DNA of 64,000 nt from Incurvaria masculella (taxonomy: Eukaryota; Arthropoda; Insecta; Lepidoptera; Incurvariidae): the NCBI GenBank assembly GCA_946894095.1, contig OX335652.1, forward strand, positions 4,301,001-4,365,000, written 5' to 3'. Shown piece after piece: positions 46,909 to 49,900 of the stretch. Positions within the stretch are counted from its first letter, which is position 1, and each line of letters opens with the position of its first letter. A model generated the notes under the pieces. That model did no database searches. It saw only the letters and a program-made list of their open reading frames with translations, and was not told where the DNA came from. A program made the position numbers and the translations under genes.

Positions 46909-49900
46909 CTACAGCCTGGCGAGCTCCAGATTCTTGAGCGCGATCTTGGCGGCGGCGCGTCTCGCCTCGTGCTTGTTGCCCCCGAAGCCGTGCACGGTGA
47001 GCACGCGCCCGTTGACCGTGACCGTCACCGGCGCCATCATCGTGGGACGGTCCGGCGACACCTTCACCACGTCCCTGCAACCACAACCGCGTGATGTCAT
47101 GTGCGAACGAAACGGAGAGGTAACTTGAAGACGAAAAAAGGACAAAGTGAGATTATTTTCATAATTTAGCCTAACACGGTAGAGCGTCGATTATTGGAAC
47201 GTCGGTCATAAGAACGACCGCTTATATGAACAGCCTAAAACTAAGCTAGAGAGGCATCACTTAGTTTTTTTATTATTATTATGCTTCTATCTGCAATCGG
47301 CTATCTAGCCATAATCATATTTTATGATTATCCATGTCGTTGTGGGCGACACTCCATTAAATGTCTTATCCCTTCAATTATTACGCTTGATAGGAATTCT
47401 ATGGAAAGATTTCGGACCAAGATTATTTCAATGATGCAAGGTTTCCTGGCGAGAAAATTCCTTTAAGAACCGCTATATAAGCTCTTTTCTCGACCGAAAA
47501 ACATTTCTGATTCCTAAGCATAGAATTCCTAAAATAAGACTCATAAATGCGCAGGCTTACTTTGGCATTTCTTTATGCCACTTTAAGTATATACATATGT
47601 ACTCATAATGTACGTCTACATGCTTACTTTTGTATGAATAAAATAATCTGTATGTCATACAAATTTATCTAAACGTAATAAAATTTTGAGATTAATTATA
47701 TAGTAAAAATCTATTAACCGAACACCCATATCTCCTATTAGTTCACATAATCGAGCTGTAGATTGTATAGCATAGATTAACATTTGTGCCCGCTGAAGAG
47801 TTACGGCGCCCCGAACCAGGTCGACGATAATCAACTGCCCTTACGTAAGGAAATGTTACAGCGAAAGGTCGGTGTATTGTTACCCACAAGTAAATGAGGC
47901 TCACCCGAATTGTGCGCAGGCGTGTATTTGCTCGCGCAGCAGCCGCACCGGCTGGATGGGAGTGTCGCGAGCGAACGCCTCGATCTCGCGGCACATCACT
48001 GCGTAGTACACGCGCCACACCGCGCTCAGGTCGCCGCCGCTGTCCAGGTAGATAGCGCCGGCCAGCGACTCAAACAGGTCACTCAGCACCTGCCCATTGT
48101 ATACATGATCACAGCTTTGGTTAGCCGTGTATGCGCTTGCTCGATCTCATGTCGCCAATCCAGTCCAGGTAGGTCTACCCAAAGAGCACCCTGGAGCATG
48201 CTCTTAGAAGCTGCATAACGCTGTCCCTCCGTCACTATACTTCCTTTGTGGAAACGGCAGGGAATACACTCATCACAGTTGACATTCCAAAAATAAGAAT
48301 CAACCGATCCTCTAGACTAGATCCTTTATCTGTAAGGTCGGTAAACAATGGAATGAACTCCCAACCAAAGCAATTCCCCCAAAGTACAACCCGGGGTCCT
48401 GGTCCTGGCCGACATGGTTTTTGCAGCCCCTCTGAAAGTTGGCCCATGGGCGCCGTCGGGCACCTTAAGAGGCCCTGGCGTACGCCATATGCCACACTTA
48501 AGATAAAAAAAAGATGGCACCAACCAGCCATTTAAATAGGCGGAGATAGCGTGTGTGATTCTCTCACAATAATTAATTGTTATGGTGGCCTGTAAGTGAC
48601 CAAAGATTACATTTACCAAACAAACACTGTGGTGGTTTAATAGATTGTTTGTATCAATCCCAGGACAGTAGTAATATATGTACGAATCCTTGGAAAATTG
48701 TTATGATATGAAAAAAATTCTAACTTTAAACACATTTTTGAATATTTGTTTCCATGAATCGATGGTGTATTTGATATAAATAACTACAAAAGTAAGAATA
48801 ATTTCATTTCAGTGTGCAGTGCACACAAAATGGAGCCTGATGTGGAGTGGAATGTTGCCGTAATTTTTGCGTACATTTGATCAAGGCACAAGGCAACAAA
48901 AAATCGACCCGCGACATGAAAGCGTCAGAACTCGTGTTCTTTTAGTTAGAAGTACAGATATGTAGAAACGAAATAAAATAGAAACAAAAAAAAAAGATGC
49001 GTAAGAACGCCACTCAATAGCTCTTCACCTGATTTCCCACTTGCGAATCTGCGTGGGGAACCATGTTCGGTGAAACCATGTATAGCCGAGATAATTGCTT
49101 TCTTTCAGGACTTCAGATAGTGTACCTTGGGCACCTCGACGTAATCGGCCATGCGGCAGTCCTCCTCATCGATGAGGTACAGCACCTCCTCACTGATGGG
49201 ATGACTACGCTGCTCCTGGTGCTGCACGAACTTCAGATAGTGTACCTTGGGCACGTCGACGTAATCGGCCATGCGGCAGTCCTCCTCATCGATGAGGTAC
49301 AGCACCTCCTCACTGATGGGATGACCACGCTGCTCCTGGTGCTGCACGAACTTCAGATAGTGTACCTTGGGCACCTCGACGTAATCGGCCATGCGGCAGT
49401 CCTCCTCATCGATGAGGTACAGCACCTCCTCACTGATGGGATGACCACGCTGCTCCTGGTGCTGCACGAACTTCAATATGGCGTTCTCTAGGTTCGGGTT
49501 CAGCAGCGACAAGAGATACCTGCGAACAATGTTTAATGGTAATGTTAGATACTTCCACTCGCCGAGAACCAAGATGCCTATAGCCAGAAAAAAAGGTGTT
49601 GCTCTGTACTAAAAATGTTTCGACCATATACGTGTCAATATGAGTTATCACAGCGCGATAAAGACACACTGGCCCTACCATCTGTTGACCTTTTCGGTCC
49701 GTAGACAATAAATATCGCACTATTCTGTCGTAGATGGAAATGCTTTAACAGTATTATTTATTAATCATAGAAAAGAAAATATAATAGAGAGGACAAAATA
49801 GCATAATATCCGACATACATGAAATATTCACAAGTTATTGCAATCTGCGTCCATGCTTCGCAGTCCCAGCTTGACGCTGTTGCTGGCGGCGGTGACATTT

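Follow-up and report, generated by a model that had tools for sequence, protein, structure and literature searches.

The window analysed here is a stretch of 64,000 nucleotides (contig C12, positions 4301001-4365000) from a genome assembled as 552 Mb in 31 contigs. When the assembly was searched by tblastn with P0122, the Dicer-2 protein of Leguminivora, residues 1-1690 of the query were matched on the minus strand of C12 in ordered blocks, with short gaps between some of them, and in window-frame coordinates the gene runs from approximately 115.8 kb to 46.9 kb. Seven of its exons, A to G, lie in the window and are listed in Table 1; the remaining Dicer-2 exons are found upstream, outside the window. 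The gene is intron-bearing and matched end to end by a Dicer-2 protein, and it combines in one unit the make-up of a Dicer-2: a helicase, a platform/PAZ side, two RNase III domains and a C-terminal dsRBD. The RNase IIIb motifs ERLEFLGDALLD in exon D and DLFESLAGAIYLD in exon F, whose acidic residues we take to be catalytic, are intact and align with those of solved Dicers. Judged by its sequence, the gene is the full-length Dicer-2 of a lepidopteran-like insect.

Among the matches listed, the ten best full-length matches to the RNase IIIb-dsRBD region were all lepidopteran, with identities of 65-71%, and were named Dicer, Dicer-2 or Dcr-2 or were unnamed. The Leguminivora protein was the best among the matches listed, at 71% identity over 93% of the query region, and as the best identity is only 71% the species' own proteins are not among these matches. 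A second Dicer-like gene, on contig C24, matches by exon at 46-65%, and it is to this gene that the Dcr-1 proteins of other insects map. By identity, the nearest relatives of the gene in the window are Dcr-2 proteins, and the genome has a separate Dcr-1 gene. The first-pass annotation had assigned the region to the RNase IIIb domain of a Dicer, and tblastn along a lepidopteran Dicer-2 bears this out and refines it to Dicer-2. Some lepidopteran gene models suggested a short Dicer of approximately 400 residues; this candidate was rejected because the same region occurs in full-length Dicer-2 proteins of approximately 1,690 residues and because the upstream exons are present at the locus.

Table 1. 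Exons, repeat copies and relics of the Dicer-2 gene, in window-frame coordinates.
Feature	Position	Strand	Evidence or remarks
Exon A, most upstream in the window	54075-54266	-	tblastn to P0122
Exon B, RNase IIIa second half	53177-53271	-	tblastn to P0122
Exon C, start of RNase IIIb	51942-52097	-	tblastn to P0122
Exon D, RNase IIIb first catalytic half (ERLEFLGDALLDF)	50669-50880	-	Pfam Ribonuclease_3, 57 bits; tblastn
Exon E as far as donor 1 (154 nt), a standard exon of Dicer-2	49366-49519	-	tblastn to P0122, 68% identity over block; spliced product in frame
Exon F, RNase IIIb second catalytic half	47905-48089	-	tblastn; Ribonuclease_3 positions 82-102, 20.7 bits, below cut-off alone
Exon G (last), C-terminal dsRNA-binding domain and stop	46909-47074	-	dsrm, 25.9 bits; tblastn
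Repeat copy 1	49356-49475	-	TGAAGT, exon end and first 10 nt of intron (GTACACTATC), with donor 1
Repeat copy 2	49236-49355	-	Single-base change, E to D; donor 2 follows 49246
Repeat copy 3	49116-49235	-	Single-base change, G to S; donor 3 follows 49126
Terminal TGAAGT hexamer, intron-side border	49110-49115	-	Matches exon-side hexamer
Decayed exon D copy 2, first piece	50604-50653	-	84%; in-frame stop; offset 180 nt
Decayed exon D copy 2, second piece	50137-50238	-	68%
Dispersed repeat between the pieces of exon D copy 2	50394-50572		
Decayed exon D copy 3	49862-50148	-	Pieces 50096-50148 (66%, E 0.19 alone) and 49862-49943 (64%)
Platform/PAZ-side exon (presumed label)	89785-89964		Array C12:4390419-4391090 (89419-90090), outside the window
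Helicase exon	100891-101025		Array C12:4401282-4402025 (100282-101025), outside the window

Other features were seen in and near the window. An epoxide-hydrolase-like gene (63275-63604, plus strand, probably starting at about 61.9 kb), presumably of the juvenile hormone type, is carried by the strand opposite to Dicer-2, within one of its introns; Abhydrolase_1 scored 33.1 bits and EHN fell below the cut-off. An LTR-retrotransposon-like element occupies 32715-44166, with long open frames at 34867-36234 and 36165-39803 recognised by eye. The stretches starting at 32715 and 42965 have largely identical open frames and are likely LTRs, and because these flanking stretches are so alike the element would be a recent insertion. 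At 8022-9980, on the plus strand, there are open frames that by eye resemble a DDE transposase element. Upstream of the first helicase exon, a tandem repeat at C12:4417547-4417819 (window-frame 116547-116819) codes for MRTWVEKRETSKHFHLFP in several near-identical copies.

The end of exon E is present as three tandem copies of a 120-bp unit, followed by a last TGAAGT hexamer. TRF reported this array at 49110-49475 with a period of 120, 3.0 copies, 98% matches and a score of 718, and repeat finding gave three register copies of 126 nt at a spacing of 120; the register copy is 120 plus 6 because the TGAAGT hexamer is common to the exon-side border (ATATTGAAGTTCG) and the intron-side border (TATCTGAAGTCCT). 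Copy 2 departs from copy 1 by a single-base change at a third codon position and copy 3 by a single-base change at a first codon position, and neither contains an indel or a stop. The sequence CCCAAG/GTACAC, in which the slash marks the exon-intron border, is found in every copy. A chance match between the three copies is excluded. The sequence observation made at first pass, namely three tandem 120-bp copies with single-base differences in two of them, each with the exon end CCCAAG and the intron start GTACAC, and with TGAAGT at both borders of the array, is therefore confirmed.

A potential explanation that would not need to invoke any expansion to three is that the array is an assembly or haplotype artefact, the true genome having one or two units, and the copy number is indeed known from the assembly alone. 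We consider this highly improbable, however, as the copies differ by single bases, as 31 contigs for 552 Mb and the lack of any N in the 133 kb read around the array suggest a good assembly, and as three arrays of other ages in Dicer-2, described below, show that such expansions occur here. At the sensitivity of the search used, no second genomic place of the repeat region was found in the 552-Mb assembly.

When exons D, E and F were joined in silico from donor 1 (49366), donor 2 (49246) or donor 3 (49126) to the acceptor of the next exon at 48089, the products were 183, 223 and 263 residues long and all were open. The extra 40 or 80 residues in the predicted products of donors 2 and 3 fall between the RNase IIIb catalytic halves, just as had been proposed at first pass. 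Reading through past donor 3 leads to an early stop (VHYLKS and a stop codon). A GT at 49029 has better U1 pairing (-8.4), but its use would yield a truncated protein. The exon E donor, AAG/GTACAC, has 5 of the 9 consensus bases, the fewest among the donors of the six exons A-F (6, 6, 7, 7 and 6 of 9 for A, B, C, D and F, respectively). Its U1 pairing energy of -5.6 kcal/mol falls within the range of the other donors (-5.0 to -10.4), and since it is not the poorest of these it is by the consensus count only that the donor can be called weak.

The three donors are identical and the approximately 100 nt of exon upstream of each are the same except for the two single-base changes, so that at the level of sequence these are GT donors of equal context with in-frame products, as in an alternative 5' splice site event. 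Three near-identical donors with 5 of 9 consensus bases, all leading to in-frame products, are what would be expected if three equal donors shared U1 snRNP and donor choice were substantial, the gene making Dicer-2 in three lengths, with 0, 40 or 80 additional residues. For the reasons that follow, we regard donor choice on this scale as possible but unlikely.

We measured the loop in question as the distance from the LVNN motif to the VPK motif in a set of 240 proteins, the searches having listed the best 120 of 3,951 and the best 120 of 1,258 matches. The loop has 62 residues in the donor-1 protein, and the same length was found, among the matches listed, in 54 of the 58 entries taken as lepidopteran, a count that is based on gene models and may miss rare isoforms. 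The other four entries lack a motif, and two of them, P0157 and P0162, seem equal in length by eye; 11 of the 58 are unnamed and some are isoforms or second entries of one species. The absence of any longer loop from the 54 lepidopteran entries with both motifs, among the matches listed, tells against substantial donor choice. Outside this group, among the matches listed, 133 of the 149 entries with both motifs have loops of 60-63 residues (the nearer motif of P0210 being counted), and the remaining 16 comprise 12 longer loops, of up to 138 residues, and 4 shorter ones; this variation elsewhere speaks in favour of donor choice. The same is true of Drosophila Dcr-2, which has a longer loop at this place, by approximately 37 residues (query residues 163-165 align at chain position 1575 and again at 1610).

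The AlphaFold model of P0005, a lepidopteran relative of 393 residues, has a mean pLDDT of 82.4 and matches Dicer structures in Foldseek. In this model the unit begins midway in helix 237-252, crosses a loop and ends where helix 280-296 starts, and one ten-residue block of the loop has a pLDDT of 52, so that the place of the insertion also lends some support to donor choice. Given the position of the loop in P0005 and the longer loop of Drosophila Dcr-2, an insertion of 40 or 80 residues would be physically plausible. As the frame is open through all copies, it could even be supposed that donor 3 is used constitutively and that every Dicer-2 of the individual carries an 80-residue insertion. 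To this we give very little credence, since it would replace the loop length of all 54 lepidopteran entries with both motifs (among the matches listed) and since the older arrays kept their first copy.

Two observations on individual entries may be recorded here. In P0210, a Dicer of the mite Oppiella nova, a single LVNN motif is followed by two VPK motifs at a distance of 128 residues from each other, and this is the only such entry among the matches listed. In Plutella xylostella, the P0038 model runs into an in-frame second copy of the end of exon D, 50 residues apart, and P0134, the model of another assembly, has one copy of that exon end. The second copy in P0038 is perhaps an independent exon-end duplication, or perhaps a model error.

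When the Dicer-2 coding blocks were scanned against 3 kb on either side, three further, older tandem arrays were found, at exon D, at the platform/PAZ-side exon, a domain label that we assume, and at the helicase exon. Each of the three has an intact 5'-most copy. The exon D array (50880-49862, minus strand) is an earlier triplication, and what remains of its second and third copies lies in the intron that precedes exon E. Aligned locally to its own intron, exon D gave a best score of 34.5, with a maximum of 26.5 in 200 shuffles, and as the alignment of copy 2 crosses the donor into the intron start, the exon D unit also spans an exon end and its donor. Reading through the exon D donor meets an immediate TAA. 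The platform/PAZ-side array likewise comprises exon end and donor, with copies at 90, 88 and 83%, the first at an offset of 150 nt; here the donor read-through is open (VVEPTDDVSSIFLVFDGAV), as is the block in frame 0. Two of its three downstream copies are frameshifted or stopped and the last is a short piece. The helicase unit is the whole exon with its former acceptor; three copies match it at 66, 82 and 84% and a further, short piece does so at 77%, and two of these four downstream copies or pieces contain in-frame stops.

Taken piece by piece, 5 of the 11 downstream pieces contain in-frame stops (D2a, D2b, P3, H2 and H4) and 6 of the 11 contain out-of-frame indels (D2b, D3a, P2, P3, H2 and H4). 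D3b shows a net loss of 15 bases. H3, P4 and H5 have no stop or frameshift, but only part of the exon was matched. In all three arrays the changes in the older copies lean to third codon positions, which fits constraint on copy 1 alone or on all copies. Because the downstream copies decayed, it appears that splicing in the three older arrays continued from the first donor, the later copies passing into the intron. The exon D relic tells little about exon E, since its read-through is stopped immediately; the nearest precedent, and the only like case, is the platform/PAZ-side array, since its read-through is open as well. That an older array with an open read-through kept only its first copy intact is a further argument against substantial donor choice.

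The suggestion of the first-pass annotation that one gene could make three proteins thus survives in part. The Dicer RNase IIIb domain, the frame, the three identical donors and the microhomology borders all stand; three proteins as the main outcome would be unlikely, since the three older arrays kept only the 5'-most copy intact and the donor-1 loop length of 62 is that of 54 of the 58 lepidopteran entries among the matches listed.

It can be asked whether the exons of Dicer-2 are a special hotspot of duplication. A tandem copy was counted if it was at least 40 nt long, lay within 1 kb and had E of at most 1e-5, both for exon blocks and for control windows. The exon set was 29 Dicer-2 blocks (33 merged blocks minus four array copies, with two blocks trimmed), and the control was made up of 1,021 windows, each 160 nt long, taken from four contigs and lying outside Dicer exons. 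Tandem copies were found for 4 of the 29 Dicer-2 blocks and 67 of the 1,021 windows (Fisher p = 0.13), a rough control because many of the 67 windows adjoin in one array and the windows may include exons of other genes. None of the 11 Dcr-1 blocks had a tandem copy. A special status of the Dicer-2 exons is unsupported by these counts, and the stretches examined are rich in local tandem duplications.

In our view the best explanation, and probably the correct one, is a young tandem expansion in which donor 1 makes the ordinary Dicer-2 and copies 2 and 3 are mainly intron, decaying, with minor leaky isoforms of 40 or 80 extra residues. The borders suggest that two TGAAGT hexamers separated by 120 bp, of which the first was exonic and the second lay immediately within the intron, guided a duplication by microhomology, which may later have been extended to three copies. 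As the unit comprises the end of the exon, its 5' splice site and 10 bases of adjoining intron, the transcript would carry three identical donors in a row. Splicing from donor 1 would give ordinary Dicer-2 and leave copies 2 and 3 in the intron, where they would be decaying, as the downstream copies of the three older arrays did. Since the donor is off consensus and repeated, a little splicing from donors 2 and 3 is likely, and this would produce minor isoforms with the extra residues in the loop between the RNase IIIb catalytic halves.

That donor 1 probably makes the normal protein follows from the older arrays, in which the 5'-most copy is intact and in which the platform/PAZ-side copies decayed despite an open read-through. 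Intron-proximal donors are favoured in some duplicated-donor experiments, however, and this counts against the leaky, donor-1-dominated expansion that we favour. The array and its frame, the identity of the gene, the older arrays with their lesions and the constant loop length of relatives are observed; we infer the donor usage, the youth of copies 2 and 3 and their lack of function. The analysis argues that donor 1 would dominate and that these copies form an intronic expansion that is young and probably transient, yielding leaky isoforms at most. The event would be a young one of a kind already known.

The gene agrees with insect Dicer-2 (Dcr-2) of the RNase III family in its exon-by-exon order and catalytic motifs, and differs in having three copies of the end of exon E with its donor and relic arrays at three other exons. 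In FLT3-ITD, internal tandem duplications can reach over an exon-intron border, and an in-frame duplicate can carry coding sequence and a donor, as here; the present case differs in lying in an insect genome and in a Dicer gene. Local tandem coding copies beside a parent exon are also found in tandem exon duplication and in mutually exclusive exons such as those of DSCAM1 (PMC9013439), a paper which cites a 2002 study for tandem exon duplications in approximately 10% of animal genes. Mutually exclusive tandem exons have their own acceptor and donor in each copy, whereas the unit of exon E begins within the exon; as it lacks the acceptor, copies 2 and 3 do not amount to complete cassette exons, and donor choice among them can only lengthen one exon.

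Competition between at least two donors for one acceptor is known from intron 4 of DOK7 (PMC5585400) and from unc-73 of C. elegans, where a duplicated donor doublet lies 18 nt downstream and both doublets are used, the upstream one more (PMC8865678); the C. elegans result speaks for a dominant donor 1. In contrast to these cases, the candidate donors described here, which are known from sequence, are 120 nt apart, are natural copies of an exon end, number three and are all in frame. PMC13030778 deals with siRNA length and Dicer-2; in the part available it uses none of the words 'RNase IIIb', 'insertion' and 'splice'. No paper on a Dicer-2 with a tandem exon duplication was found in the open-licence literature, which does not imply absence from print, and no title among the matches listed from that literature concerned such an array in a Dicer gene.

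What is new here is the presence of three older tandem arrays at other exons of the same Dicer-2 gene. Arrays of several ages in one gene show the birth and death of exon-end duplications. The youngest is a natural experiment on splice-site competition, with three identical donors at one exon and every product in frame, and the enzyme concerned has a loop of uniform length in all 54 measurable lepidopteran entries among the matches listed. A bolder view is that the exon end is a length module, giving Dicer-2 proteins with 0, 40 or 80 extra residues by donor choice and varying in copy number between individuals, in a gene that has given rise to such arrays time and again, so that the length of an antiviral dicing enzyme would be tested in nature; we think this unlikely. 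If the long forms are made, they would tell us whether the RNase IIIb loop tolerates 40-80 extra residues and the enzyme still dices.
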